NCBI GenBank assembly: GCA_023247275.1
Contig: JAHFGT010000010.1
Span: 1 to 45,393 of the forward strand
From: Candidatus Omnitrophota bacterium
GTDB taxonomy: Bacteria > Omnitrophota > Gorgyraeia > Aquiviventales > Aquiviventaceae
DNA: 45,393 bases
Direction: 5' to 3'
Part shown: positions 17,178 through 34,719 of the stretch, piece after piece
Position numbering within the stretch: the first letter of the stretch is position 1
How the letters are laid out: each line of letters begins with the position of its first letter
The notes under the pieces: model-generated
The model's database searches: none
What the model saw: only the letters and a program-made list of their open reading frames with translations
What the model was told of the DNA's origin: nothing
Translations under genes and position numbers: made by a program

Positions 17178-19366
17178 GCTCCGAGCCTTCTCGTCCGCAG
17201 GACAAGGTCCTGATCCTCAAGCGGGTTCCGGTCTTTGCGTCCTGCACCGATGAGCAGCTGCACCTGATCGCGGATCGCACGCGTCTGGTCGAATTTAAGA
17301 AAGGGGAAACCATCTACCGAGAAGGCGACCCGGCGAATGCGTTCTATATCATCAGTTCCGGACGCTTGCGGGTGTTTACGGCCAATGGGCCGGATGAAAA
17401 AACGTTGACGGTGCTGCACAACGGCGATTCATTCGGTGAAATTTCCTTACTGACGGGCGAGACACACTCCGCCACCGTGCAGGCGCTCAACGACACGCTG
17501 ATTCTCGAACTCCAGAAGGGCGACTTTGACGACGTCATCAACCGAATCCCATCGCTGGTGCTCTACCTCAGTCGACAATTGTCCAAGCGTTTGCGCACCC
17601 GCCAACTCACCAGCGAATTCTCAGAGGCCACGATCGCCGCGATGTACAGCGCCACGACCGGGGTGGGCCAAACCTGTGTGGCGATCGCGCTCGCGGCCAG
17701 CCTGAAACGAGAGACCGGCAAAGAGGTGGTCCTGGTCGATTTCCGTGGCGGCCATACGCATCGGGCGTGGCTGTATCCCGAGGACGCGGCCGGCACGACG
17801 AGTCAGCATGTGCTGTTGGGCGCGTCGTCGGACGAACCGTTTAACGCGGAGATCTCGACCCATCCGCTAGGATTTAACATGCTGGCGGCGGCGAGCCTGT
17901 TTGCTGAGGATGGCGGGGAGCAGATCATTGCGCCGCTCTTGAGTTTTCTCACCAACCGGTTCGCCTATGTGCTGATCGAATTGCCGCCGGTGTTAGAGCC
18001 AGGGGTGATCAAAGCCCTCGTGCAATCGGATCTCATCTATCTGGTGAGCGATCATGACGAGGCCCATGTGCTGCGGACCAATGCGTTGATTCGCCAGCTC
18101 CAAGAAATCGTCGGGACCATCGACCAGCGACTGAAAATTATCGTGAATCTGTTGCCAGGTGTTGAGCGACCCATGGCGACGGCAGAGATTGCTCAGCAGT
18201 TAGGCCGACCGGTCGCGCACGTGTTGCCCTGTATCCTGTCGCCGTCCGGCCAGTTGACACTGGAAGCATTGACCCAGACACTGATCACCCGCAGCGCGCC
18301 GTACACCATCATGGCTCGGTACATGGCGCGTGAGCTCAGCGGCCTGCTGGTGGGACTTGCCCTCGGTTCTGGCGCAGCGCTGGGTTTGGCGCACATTGGC
18401 GTTCTCAAGGTGTTGGAACGAGAACAGATCCCAATCGATATCGTGGCGGGCTCCAGTATCGGGGCGCTGGTGGGCGGGTTATGGGCCTCTGGACGGTCGG
18501 CCACCGAGTTAGAGGAGATGGCACTTCGCTTTAAAAATCCTTGGGATGTGCGCAAACTGTTCATGCTGGATCTGGGGATTCCCTGGATCAGCCTGATGAT
18601 TGGCATTGCGGCTGGTGTGGGCATGGGATGGTTGGCCGGGGTGTGGACCGGGCTCCTGTGTGGATTTCTGGTCTGCATGACCGTGGGGCTCATCCTCGGT
18701 CCGCTTGTTGGTGGCCCGATCGAAGGGGCTCGGTTGATGGCGCAACTCGAGCAGGATTTTGCCGGAAAGACGTTTGACCAGACGTGGATTCCGTTAAAGG
18801 TGGTGGCCGCCAATCCAATGACGCGGGAAGAGGTCGTCTTCGAATCCGGACGGCTGGCCGATGCGGTGCGGGCCTCAGTCTCGATCCCAGGGATTTTTAA
18901 ACCCGTCCTGCGCGGCGGCAACCTGTGTCTTGATGGGGGGGTGCTCAGTCCGGTGCCGGTGGGTGTGCTCAAACGGGCTGGCGCGAACCGGGTCATCGCG
19001 GTCAATGTGTTTCCCAACGCGACCGAGTTGGCTTCCTATCGGCAGGAACGACAACGCCGCCGGGCTGAACGCGATGCGCAACTGGCGAGTCGCAGCTTGC
19101 CGATCCGGGTCTTGTGGCGAATTCGGCAAGAGGTCATCCGGTCGATGTCGCCGTTGGTGTTTGATGTCATCATGCGGTCCATGCAGGCCATGGAACATCA
19201 GATCGCCGACGTGGCGTGTCGGGAATCGGATCTGACGCTGCGCCCAACGGTGCCAGGGTCGCATTGGCTGGAGTTCTTCAATCCGGAGAAATTTATCCGC
19301 CGCGGGGAAGAAATTACCTTGCAATACCTGCCTGAACTCAAGCGAATTACGCGGCGAGGGGTTTGA
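17174..19366 (+). CDS. Three-part protein: cyclic-nucleotide-binding domain, ParA/MinD-like domain, patatin phospholipase
   Basis: A 730-residue fusion. Residues about 14-135 are a cNMP-binding domain (FKKGETIYREGD, then FGEISLLTGE). Residues about 153-380 are a ParA/MinD-type P-loop fold: the Walker A-like TTGVGQTC has Gln166 where Lys is expected, and VVLVDFRGG gives the acidic strand. Residues about 389-640 are a patatin (NTE) domain with the oxyanion GSGAALGLAHIG, nucleophile S428 in GSSIG and D587 in DGG. Two hydrophobic segments (about 471-515) interrupt the patatin domain, so it should sit in the membrane. It is a probable regulated (lyso)phospholipase, coupled to the phosphodiesterase gene by ATGA overlap. 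Confidence 0.9.
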   Translation: MSSEPSRPQDKVLILKRVPVFASCTDEQLHLIADRTRLVEFKKGETIYREGDPANAFYIISSGRLRVFTANGPDEKTLTVLHNGDSFGEISLLTGETHSATVQALNDTLILELQKGDFDDVINRIPSLVLYLSRQLSKRLRTRQLTSEFSEATIAAMYSATTGVGQTCVAIALAASLKRETGKEVVLVDFRGGHTHRAWLYPEDAAGTTSQHVLLGASSDEPFNAEISTHPLGFNMLAAASLFAEDGGEQIIAPLLSFLTNRFAYVLIELPPVLEPGVIKALVQSDLIYLVSDHDEAHVLRTNALIRQLQEIVGTIDQRLKIIVNLLPGVERPMATAEIAQQLGRPVAHVLPCILSPSGQLTLEALTQTLITRSAPYTIMARYMARELSGLLVGLALGSGAALGLAHIGVLKVLEREQIPIDIVAGSSIGALVGGLWASGRSATELEEMALRFKNPWDVRKLFMLDLGIPWISLMIGIAAGVGMGWLAGVWTGLLCGFLVCMTVGLILGPLVGGPIEGARLMAQLEQDFAGKTFDQTWIPLKVVAANPMTREEVVFESGRLADAVRASVSIPGIFKPVLRGGNLCLDGGVLSPVPVGVLKRAGANRVIAVNVFPNATELASYRQERQRRRAERDAQLASRSLPIRVLWRIRQEVIRSMSPLVFDVIMRSMQAMEHQIADVACRESDLTLRPTVPGSHWLEFFNPEKFIRRGEEITLQYLPELKRITRRGV

Positions 19367-20664: not shown

Positions 20665-21891
20665 ATGTACATCTATAAGACCGCGGTCGTAGGCGCTGGG
20701 GCGATGGGCGCGGAGATTGCTCAGGTCATCAGCTTTAGCGGGGTTCCGGTGCTGCTGAAGGATGTGGACCAGGCCAGGGTGGATCAGGGGCTTGGGGTCA
20801 TCCGCAAAATCTACCAGCGCCGGGTGGACCGTGGCAAGATGACCCAGGACGAGTTGGAGAAGAAGCTGACGCTGGTCACCGGCGTGACCACGTTGGACGA
20901 GTTCAAAGATGTCGACTTGGTCATCGAAGCTGTGCCGGAGAAGCTGGCGCTGAAGCACAGCATCTTCAAAGAGCTTGACGGAATCCTTCCGGAATCCTCC
21001 CTCATCGCCTCCAACACCTCCTCGCTGTCGATTTCTGCGTTGGGTGGAGCGACCAAGCGTCCGCATAAGGTGATCGGGATGCATTTCTTCTATCCAGCGC
21101 ACATCATGAAGCTGGTTGAGGTGATCCCAGGCCTGGAGACCTCGGACGAGACCGTTGCGGACATTCTCTCATTTGCTGAGAGCCTCAGGAAACTGCCGGT
21201 CCGGGTCAACGAGTGCCCTGGATTTCTCGTCAATCGGATCCTGATGCCGTATTTGAACGAAGCCGCCTTCTGTGTGCAAGAGGGCGCGGCCACGCCACGG
21301 CAGATCGACGAGGCGCTGATCGCATTTGGATTCCCCATGGGACCATTCACCCTGGTGGACAATCTAGGATTCGATGTGTGTCGAGAGGTCGTGAACATTC
21401 TATTAGATGCCTACGGATCACGCATGCAACCTGCACAGATCTGGGAGCGGTTGCACACGCTCAAGCGGTATGGCGCCAAGGCCGGAGCCGGATTCTATCT
21501 GTATGGAGACCGTGCCGGACAGCCTGACCCTGAGCTGGACCAGATCATCCAGCAGGCAACGGCCCAGCGCAAGACACCGTCGGAGTTTTCAGTTCACCGC
21601 TTGGTGCTGCCGATGATCAATGAAGCGATCCGGTGTCTTGAGGAGCATGTGTGCACCGCAGCAGACGTCGATCTGTCGGTCATCGCCGGGCTCGGGTTCC
21701 CGCAATCCAAAGGCGGGATCTTACACTACGCTGACGAGGTAGGGCTGGAGGCGGTGCTCTGCGAACTGCAGCAGCTGACTACGGTTCATGGGGAACGGTT
21801 CTGGCCGTCGCCGCTACTCAAGCGCAAGGTGGCGGCCGGGCACCTGGGCAAGAAAGCGAAGAAAGGGTTCTTCGACTACAGCGGCTCATGA
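20665..21891 (+). CDS. 3-hydroxyacyl-CoA dehydrogenase with duplicated C-terminal domain
   Basis: Oxidises L-3-hydroxyacyl-CoA to 3-ketoacyl-CoA with NAD. ATG 20665 gives 408 residues; TTG 20659 is less likely. The N-terminal Rossmann domain has GAGAMG (10-15), EAVPEKLALK and the ASNTSSLS loop with MHFFYPAHIMKLVEV (catalytic His). Two 3HCDH C-terminal domains follow, the second ending ILHYADEVGL. This is the dehydrogenase half of FadB without the hydratase half, which is supplied by the next gene, so the usual multifunctional protein is split here. An AAGGAG ribosome binding site for the next gene overlaps its end. Confidence 0.94.
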   Translation: MYIYKTAVVGAGAMGAEIAQVISFSGVPVLLKDVDQARVDQGLGVIRKIYQRRVDRGKMTQDELEKKLTLVTGVTTLDEFKDVDLVIEAVPEKLALKHSIFKELDGILPESSLIASNTSSLSISALGGATKRPHKVIGMHFFYPAHIMKLVEVIPGLETSDETVADILSFAESLRKLPVRVNECPGFLVNRILMPYLNEAAFCVQEGAATPRQIDEALIAFGFPMGPFTLVDNLGFDVCREVVNILLDAYGSRMQPAQIWERLHTLKRYGAKAGAGFYLYGDRAGQPDPELDQIIQQATAQRKTPSEFSVHRLVLPMINEAIRCLEEHVCTAADVDLSVIAGLGFPQSKGGILHYADEVGLEAVLCELQQLTTVHGERFWPSPLLKRKVAAGHLGKKAKKGFFDYSGS

Positions 21892-33231: not shown

Positions 33232-33879
33232 ATGCCATCGACGGCATTATCGCGGTGCCCCTGGGCGATGCAACCGCCGGTCATGACAACCTATCACGAT
33301 GTCGAGTGGGGCGTGCCGATCTATGACGACCGGAAATTGTTTGCATTACTCGTGCTTGATGCGATGCAGGCTGGGTTAAGCTGGTTGATCGTCCTGCGTA
33401 AACGCGAGGCCATCCGACAAGCGTTTGACCAGTTCGATCCAGAGCGGATTGCCCGCTATAGCCGCGCCAACATCAGCACGCTCTTGCAGAATCCAGCGCT
33501 CATCCGGAATCGCTTAAAGATCGAGGCGACGATCGCCAACGCCCAAGCGTTCCTGCAGGTCGTCGAACGGCAGCGGAATTTTCATACTTATCTGTGGAGC
33601 TTTGTCGATGGTCAGCCCGTGCAACCCAAGCGTCGCTCGATGCTGCAGATTCCAACCCAGACAGCAGAATCCCAGCGGATGAGCCGAGCGCTCATGCAGG
33701 TCGGGTTTCGGTTTGTCGGCCCAACTATCTGCTATGCCTTCATGCAAGCCGCCGGCTTGGTGAACGATCATCTCATCGACTGTTTTCGCCATCGGCAGTT
33801 GCTGTGCCGGCACAATTCATTCCGTCGGATAACCAAGCCACCCCGTAGCAGGATCAACCTATTGTCGAGGCGTCGTTAG
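33232..33879 (+). CDS. tag: DNA-3-methyladenine glycosylase I
   Basis: Removes 3-methyladenine from alkylated DNA. The 215 residues show the Tag-specific zinc ligands: Cys in RCPW (C9), His in TYHDVEWG, and His and Cys in NDHLIDCFRH near the C-terminus. The substrate-pocket segment DAMQAGLSW is conserved. It is slightly longer than E. coli Tag, with an Arg-rich end. It closes a repair/GTPase operon (polX-era-nudix-tag). Together with the MagIII-like glycosylase at 13819 it gives this genome at least two alkylation-repair candidates. Confidence 0.95.
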   Translation: MPSTALSRCPWAMQPPVMTTYHDVEWGVPIYDDRKLFALLVLDAMQAGLSWLIVLRKREAIRQAFDQFDPERIARYSRANISTLLQNPALIRNRLKIEATIANAQAFLQVVERQRNFHTYLWSFVDGQPVQPKRRSMLQIPTQTAESQRMSRALMQVGFRFVGPTICYAFMQAAGLVNDHLIDCFRHRQLLCRHNSFRRITKPPRSRINLLSRRR

Positions 33880-33918: not shown

Positions 33919-33949
33919 ATATAACATGCTGTAGTGTAGTACGTTATAT
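33919..33949. promoter_or_regulatory. Perfect dyad ATATAAC-N17-GTTATAT, candidate activator site
   Basis: Seven-base arms at 33919-33925 and 33943-33949 lie in an AT-rich island, centred about 50 bases upstream of a sigma-54 promoter. That is a plausible place for an enhancer-binding protein. The core ATAAC-N17-GTTAT is shared with 13194-13220. Confidence 0.5.
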
Positions 33950-33980
33950 AATATAAGATATTGTCTTTTTGAAAGATAGA

Positions 33981-33996
33981 TGGCATGTTGCTTGCT
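33981..33996 (+). promoter_or_regulatory. Sigma-54 promoter (-24/-12) of the PEP-CTERM gene
   Basis: TGGCATGTTGCTTGCT matches the RpoN consensus TGGCACG-N4-TTGCW with the invariant GG and GC exactly 10 bases apart. Transcription should start near 34007 and give a leader of about 60 bases ending in a GGGGAGGA ribosome binding site. RpoN with the PrsK/PrsR two-component pair is known to control PEP-CTERM genes in some bacteria. Confidence 0.8.
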
Positions 33997-34065
33997 TCTT
34001 GCTTAAAGTATCTACTATATTGTATTTCACTCTGTGGTTCATTGAACAGCATGGGGAGGAAGTCC

Positions 34066-34599
34066 ATGACGCGTAAGTGGCAATTTGCCGGGGCGCTACT
34101 GGCGGTTCTGTTTGCGTTTCCAGGAACATCACATGCGGTGATTGGCGCATCGCTTTTCTCTATCGGTGGTGATGTCCAAGTGGAAATCCTCCCATTTTCT
34201 GCCGCCTTTACCAACGAACTGCATCTGTTCTCTCCAGGACCTGACAGGTTCATCGGTCTGAATACCGAGGTTGGAAAGGTTGTGGATCTCGGGAACTTTC
34301 CAAGCGGCGAAGAGCTCATCTTCGGGATTTTTGTTCAGAATACCGGCAATACCTTCGTGATGGGGCCTGGATCCCGTAACCCGGACGGTGTCGCGCATGC
34401 GGATGTCACCGTCTTGAATCCACGAGTTGCCACCGTGGCATTTGAGGATTTATACGGCGGGGGCGATGTTGACTACAACGATCTTGGGTTCCGAGTGACT
34501 CAATGCCATAGCGTGATCCCAGAGCCTGCCAGCGCAGTGCTGATGACAGTGGGATTGCTTGGGACAGTGATCAGACGCCGGTCTCGGTCTAGAATCTAG
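34066..34599 (+). CDS. PEP-CTERM sorting-domain protein, DUF4114-like
   Basis: A 177-residue surface or extracellular protein. The signal peptide (1-24, ending SHA) leads into a beta-rich region with Asn/Gly-rich segments. AFEDLYGGGDVDYNDLGFRV (125-144) resembles the DUF4114 motif, likely calcium-binding. The C-terminus is a PEP-CTERM tripartite signal: PEP at 152-154, a hydrophobic helix (156-169) and RRR (170-172), the target of an exosortase. ATG 34066 has a good ribosome binding site; the frame opens at 33985 but that part is leader. It is a single-gene unit with its own sigma-54 promoter and terminator. No exosortase gene is in the window. Confidence 0.92.
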   Translation: MTRKWQFAGALLAVLFAFPGTSHAVIGASLFSIGGDVQVEILPFSAAFTNELHLFSPGPDRFIGLNTEVGKVVDLGNFPSGEELIFGIFVQNTGNTFVMGPGSRNPDGVAHADVTVLNPRVATVAFEDLYGGGDVDYNDLGFRVTQCHSVIPEPASAVLMTVGLLGTVIRRRSRSRI

Positions 34600-34631
34600 T
34601 TCGCTCAGCAGTATTGCGAGGACAGCTTCAG

Positions 34632-34660
34632 GCGCCCAGCGTAGGCTGGGCGCTTTTTTC
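34632..34660 (+). terminator. Intrinsic terminator of the PEP-CTERM gene
   Basis: GCGCCCAGC (34632-34640) pairs perfectly with GCTGGGCGC (34645-34653) around a 4-base loop, then TTTTTT. Confidence 0.93.
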
Positions 34661-34708: not shown

Positions 34709-34719
34709 AAGTGATCGCC

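Follow-up and report, generated by a model that had tools for sequence, protein, structure and literature searches.

The PEP-CTERM gene located at positions 34066–34599 of the window is probably (we put the likelihood at roughly three in four) controlled as part of a sigma-54 regulon through which, in Omnitrophota, the synthesis of exopolysaccharide is coupled to PEP-CTERM surface proteins. The window is the whole 45,393-nucleotide stretch of DNA that was analysed, and is contig C76 of a 1.89 Mb Omnitrophota MAG, which is 86% complete. Its original assignment to this phylum was borne out, as the nearest named relatives of the exosortase belong to Candidatus Omnitrophota MAGs. The genes and their linkage, the statistics of the promoters and upstream dyads, the co-occurrence of these sites with a regulator and the presence of a single activator were all observed directly, and this reading is built upon them.

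The window gene and its promoter

It had been noted that an exact −24/−12 promoter, an upstream dyad, a ribosome binding site and a private terminator surround a DUF4114-like PEP-CTERM gene between positions 33919 and 34660, and inspection of the sequence located each of these parts in its place, all on the forward strand. The gene initiates with an ATG at 34066 and encodes 177 amino acids, consisting of a signal peptide (judged by eye), a DUF4114 part and a PEP-CTERM tail. The match to DUF4114 was partial and covered residues 102–145 (34369–34500; PF13448, E = 6.1e-7, above the gathering score), while the PEP-CTERM sorting signal VIPEPASAVLMTVGLLGTVIRRRS at 34516–34587 scored 20.5 bits with TIGR02595 (cut-off 16) and at the cut-off with the Pfam PEP-CTERM model. 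The product is predicted to be processed by exosortase. The ribosome binding site GGGGAGGAAG (34053–34062) lies ahead of the ATG, and downstream of the gene is an intrinsic terminator (34630–34659; −23 kcal/mol, z = −5.74) with a GC stem at 34630–34655, a four-base loop and a T run. The gene is monocistronic, the upstream neighbour ending at 33879 and the downstream neighbour starting at 34711. No close orthologues of the protein were found in 99 relatives, which gave only weak matches to the tail or to DUF4114, and footprinting was therefore moved to its class of genes.

The sigma-54 promoter TGGCATGTTGCTTGCT at 33981–33996 (GG at 33982–33983, GC at 33994–33995) matches the consensus exactly, and from the position of the box transcription is expected to start near 34007. 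This was the highest-scoring site across four contigs (G+C was equal across the contigs used, 0.59–0.60), it lies 70 bp ahead of one of the approximately six PEP-CTERM genes, and it is the single copy of TGGCAYR-N4-TTGCW in the 1.89-Mb assembly. About 1.5 copies of this exact sequence would be expected per genome by chance, as estimated from base composition, so the match alone is unremarkable and the box counts only through its place and its company.

A scan with the same exact sequence had been proposed to reveal promoters ahead of other PEP-CTERM genes. In this form it proved too strict as a regulon finder, returning the window site alone, while intergenic sites of the relaxed form TGGYAY-N6-TGCT were found ahead of five of the six PEP-CTERM genes of the genome (five above the TIGR02595 cut-off and a sixth just under the Pfam cut-off); the gene at C26:22763 had no site. 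In raw number the relaxed form showed no excess in this genome (20 matches versus 27 in the reversed control), and position or a dyad is therefore needed to give it weight. Absence of rpoN, or of such promoters from other PEP-CTERM genes, had been named as evidence against sigma-54 control, and the genome was found to carry both.

The exosortase cluster and its activator

A search for rpoN and exosortase, as originally suggested, identified one of each in the genome. The single exosortase matched PF09721 with 210 bits and TIGR02602 with 156.6 (cut-off 105.55), and contains the motifs VCSGLRS, NMVRI and FLHYG. Together with the single-copy rpoN and a full-length NtrC-type regulator it is located on contig C69, in a cluster which begins with a small PEP-CTERM gene (C69:13521) and continues with genes for a membrane protein (C69:13926), a TPR lipoprotein, the exosortase (C69:15750), EpsI (C69:16565), a histidine kinase (C69:17199–18395), the NtrC-type regulator (C69:18388–19776, with the start also placed at 18361) and a PocR-domain protein (C69:19837). 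rpoN (C69:20436–21932) is located on the opposite strand, convergent with the cluster.

This order, whole or for the part present on the contig, was kept in all the remaining genera with exosortase, both within the family and in its sister family, and rpoN was the convergent neighbour wherever contigs extended beyond the PocR gene, with the exception of G023; the kinase gene is missing from the cluster of G011. Elsewhere in the class, several families showed a membrane–TPR–kinase–regulator block linked to the exosortase cluster (G040, G045, G049, G064 and G083), and in G030, G038, G071 and G086 no such regulator was found within about 10 kb. G030 carries 26 PEP-CTERM genes and an exosortase and has no full-length sigma-54 activator; no −24/−12 box was found at the two of its PEP-CTERM genes that were examined, and this genome thus serves as a natural negative control.

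Two components of the cluster were observed to have features of their own. The membrane protein of ∼296 residues (L029:13926–14813; orthologues at L122:7695–8594 and elsewhere) adjoins the TPR lipoprotein in most clusters, gave no Pfam or NCBIfam match and represents an unnamed exosortase-associated family. The PocR-domain protein (L009:2938–3498) has 187 residues here and approximately 350 in most relatives; it may have been shortened in this genome, or may sense a ligand for the switch.

One full-length protein with the sigma-54 activator domain (Sigma54_activat) was detected in the genome, the C69 regulator, besides three further matches of 19–34 bits, which are weak, as expected of other AAA+ proteins. 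Most cluster-bearing members of the family have exactly one full-length protein of this type (G002 and G016 have two), and none above 200 bits was detected in the members without exosortase (G001, G006, G008 and G012). As far as an incomplete assembly can show, the C69 regulator, as the sole activator, must be used by any sigma-54 promoter of this genome; at 86% completeness, a second activator could be missing from the MAG.

The original prediction had pointed to the PrsK/PrsR pair, and for this genome that part did not hold. The C69 regulator scored 380 with PrsR (TIGR02915, cut-off 502.6) and was fitted better by the AtoC/NtrC models. The kinase is a short soluble PAS-HisKA-HATPase protein, scoring 86 with PrsK (TIGR02916, cut-off 300) through a match to the kinase core alone, and the TPR lipoprotein, the one protein scored with PrsT (TIGR02917), reached 39 against a cut-off of 312. 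In another family of this class, f6 (G031 and G065), a regulator above the PrsR cut-off (533 and 538) is located beside exosortase and EpsI, with a PrsK-like kinase scoring 234 and 228, below 300. The regulator tree placed the window kind in a clade of 16 (support 100/98), apart from the f6 PrsR, which suggests that different two-component pairs occupy the place beside exosortase. It had also been proposed that the control circuit travels with the sorting system; these data suggest that the logic of control accompanies the sorting system, though here it is not carried by the same proteins.

Upstream dyads and the genes behind them

A sigma-54 matrix was written from the published consensus before any sequence was looked at. 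Sites scoring ≥12 were located ahead of 22 of the ∼42 PEP-CTERM genes of the family, and the reverse-strand windows gave 0; in the family loci overall, 21 of 65 sites precede PEP-CTERM genes, where approximately two would be expected by area (our own arithmetic). Approximately half of the PEP-CTERM genes in the family lack a site, in part owing to their position within operons. In the window's genome, further intergenic TGGYAY-N6-TGCT sites precede the genes for the sugar transferase, a BNR-repeat protein and a GH5 cellulase-like protein, as well as a Poly_export gene and rpoN. Identical 16-base sigma-54 boxes (TGGCACGGCGTCTGCT) were observed at G000:C31:17782–17797 and 21342–21357, both on the reverse strand, preceding genes for a secreted protein of the BNR/sortilin type and for a GH5 cellulase-like protein, which are located between two PEP-CTERM genes.

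The box of rpoN itself (C69:21877–21892) is 35 bp ahead of the likely start of the gene. A box was present shortly 5′ of rpoN in 10 of the 11 genera in which the gene start is present (G000, G007, G013, G014, G015, G017, G020, G022, G024 and G027, not G011; loci L121, L122, L125, L126, L128, L231, L233, L234 and L235), where ∼0.014 would be expected per gene. rpoN is probably autoregulated.

The regions upstream of 23 −24/−12 boxes were searched with no prior motif, and two inverted repeats stood out. The first, TAAC-N17-GTTA, is present at the window gene as a dyad (TAACATGCTGTAGTGTAGTACGTTA, 33922–33946), a putative activator (enhancer) site which is enriched in relatives and in the class; its 7-bp arms, ATATAAC and GTTATAT, span 33919–33949, and it starts 59 bp 5′ of the −24 box. 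Among the 23 boxes this dyad was found four times exactly (0.08 expected) and 13 times with up to one mismatch (2.0 expected), starting mostly 58–61 bp and at times 45–49 bp 5′ of the box; no exact copy was found at the rpoN boxes examined. The exact count was borderline, as 9 of 200 shuffles also gave four for some repeat, and a class-wide test was therefore performed. The second, TGTC-N10-GACA, was the most enriched inverted repeat (5/23 exact, 0.03 expected) and is located mostly 115–170 bp 5′ of boxes heading operons (for example L029:13306–13323, L122 and L118); it was not found ahead of the window gene.

For the class-wide test a composite was defined as TAAC-N17-GTTA followed within 15–45 bases by TGGYAY-N6-TGCW. 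This gave 58 matches in 49 of the 384 genomes of the class, just a few of them supplied by the discovery sequences, and the reversed control gave 0. Further letters inside the dyad were shared as well (TAACtnnTT...AAnnnGTTA). The distance from dyad to promoter was mostly 24–43 bases, and no helical phasing of this distance was seen over the 58 sites. The 56 genes behind the composites include 16 sugar transferases initiating EPS synthesis, 13 PEP-CTERM genes and nine polysaccharide export genes, with smaller groups of subtilases, MerR-type proteins, PilZ proteins, receivers and pilins. At a presence threshold of 1e-100, with the truncated regulator of G005 added by hand, the regulator was present in 41 of the 49 composite-bearing genomes and in 80 of the 335 others (Fisher p = 6e-16, a statistic which ignores shared ancestry); the remaining eight gave no match at this threshold. 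Of the 58 sites, 26 are on the same contig as a regulator gene.

EPS sugar transferases from two genera of one Omnitrophota family (L171:1757–2536 and L172:14–451) were observed to carry a PEP-CTERM-like segment VPEPSTTALLATGFIGYMT behind their N-terminal signal peptide, which in sequence looks as if a sorting signal had been fused to the N-terminus of the enzyme.

Since roughly one exact copy of the consensus is expected per genome by chance, the box at 33981–33996 could be fortuitous and the window gene driven by a sigma-70 promoter. This is very improbable given the placement of the box, the dyad at a shared distance, the boxes at five of six PEP-CTERM genes and the class-wide count of 58 versus 0; moreover, the one sigma-70-like match in the region was weak and equal to shuffles, that is, at chance level. 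Alternatively, sigma-54 control may be real while the cluster regulator uses another site, such as TGTC-N10-GACA, with TAAC-N17-GTTA bound by a different protein, for example a DNA-bending or repressor protein. The second dyad does top the enrichment and sits at a classical enhancer distance, and the TAAC composite occurs in eight genomes that gave no match to the regulator. This arrangement appears rather unlikely, as the TAAC dyad is the one present at the window gene and in the class-wide composites, as TGTC-N10-GACA is missing from the window gene, and as the TAAC sites co-occur with the regulator, often near its gene, in addition to the window's genome having no other detectable activator.

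A canonical PrsK/PrsR circuit, as in Proteobacteria, shares the same logic, and family f6 (G031 and G065) has a true PrsR and a PrsK-like kinase next to its exosortase. For the window's genome such a circuit is extremely improbable, with the regulator and kinase well under the PrsR and PrsK cut-offs, the regulator in a different and well-supported clade, and an enhancer motif unlike the TTTACA-ending motif 1 of Haft et al. (2006). That motif, located about 63 bp ahead of the −24 box, was absent at the window gene, which has TAAC-N17-GTTA instead. The preferred reading is a sigma-54 regulon served by the cluster's own regulator through the TAAC dyad.

Proposed mechanism and relation to known systems

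In the proposed mechanism, a signal would be received by the cytoplasmic PAS kinase encoded beside exosortase (C69:17199–18395), which would phosphorylate the adjacent NtrC-type regulator. Once bound to the TAAC-N17-GTTA dyad 5′ of the promoter, the regulator would use its ATPase to open the sigma-54 RNA polymerase held at 33981–33996. Sec would export the product, which would then be processed by the only exosortase and end up at the surface or in the slime layer. The same switch would also activate the genes for the polysaccharide exporter and the first sugar transferase, together with the exosortase operon, and rpoN, convergent with the cluster and with a −24/−12 box of its own, probably regulates itself.

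As rpoN, the only matching activator, the kinase and exosortase are located side by side, the genes for surface proteins and for slime sugars are probably turned on jointly, through a two-component pair other than that known from Proteobacteria. With one rpoN, one activator and one kinase, all in the exosortase cluster, the sigma-54 of this family appears, on balance, to be a dedicated and self-regulated factor of the exosortase/exopolysaccharide system that serves no other regulon; across the phylum, on the same balance, PrsK/PrsR and the present pair would have taken the same seat beside exosortase.

Haft et al. (2006; PMC1569441) reported operons of one PEP-CTERM gene preceded by a sigma-54 box and an activator motif, together with PrsK/PrsR/PrsT, in Proteobacteria only. 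The present system is similar in having solitary PEP-CTERM genes with an enhancer-like motif and a −24/−12 box ahead of them, in its NtrC-type regulator, kinase and TPR lipoprotein, and in its link to exopolysaccharide genes. It differs in belonging to Omnitrophota, in a regulator and kinase outside the PrsR and PrsK families, in a different 25-bp dyad, in a TPR protein far under the PrsT cut-off and in the presence of rpoN within the cluster. Regulators are routinely linked to exosortase here, whereas they were near or adjacent in 3 of 13 cases in the earlier study (PMC1569441). In Aquincola tertiaricarbonis an RpoN-dependent −24/−12 promoter of pepA, a gene associated with flocs, was mapped experimentally (PMC9850573). 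pepA is likewise a PEP-CTERM gene with a −24/−12 promoter and its own terminator (putative in Aquincola); unlike the present organism, Aquincola is a proteobacterium with canonical PrsK/PrsR, and no rpoN is shown in the mapped loci (PMC9850573).

Control of the bacterial exterior by sigma-54 is an accepted theme (Francke et al., 2011; PMC3162934), into which exopolysaccharide and surface genes under sigma-54 fit; PEP-CTERM was not mentioned in that study, and in the present case sigma-54 seems to have been narrowed down to a single regulon of this kind, served by a single activator. In a PVC relative, chlamydial sigma-54 and CtcC form an NtrC-type system controlling cell-surface genes (PMC7482065), but CtcC has no DNA-binding domain and its targets are late-stage membrane and secretion genes rather than exosortase or EPS genes (PMC7482065). 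Exosortase, PEP-CTERM and RpoN are not mentioned in the main text of a large Omnitrophota genome study (PMC10066038).

Sigma-54 control of PEP-CTERM genes has been reported as limited to Proteobacteria, and the same logic is here found in an uncultured phylum, where both the regulator pair and the enhancer motif are different. The system is compact, with one factor and one activator, and rpoN has been drawn into the cluster. Its defined motif can be used to predict genes for surface and slime across Omnitrophota, and the system offers a testable case in which a control circuit was replaced while the wiring plan was kept.
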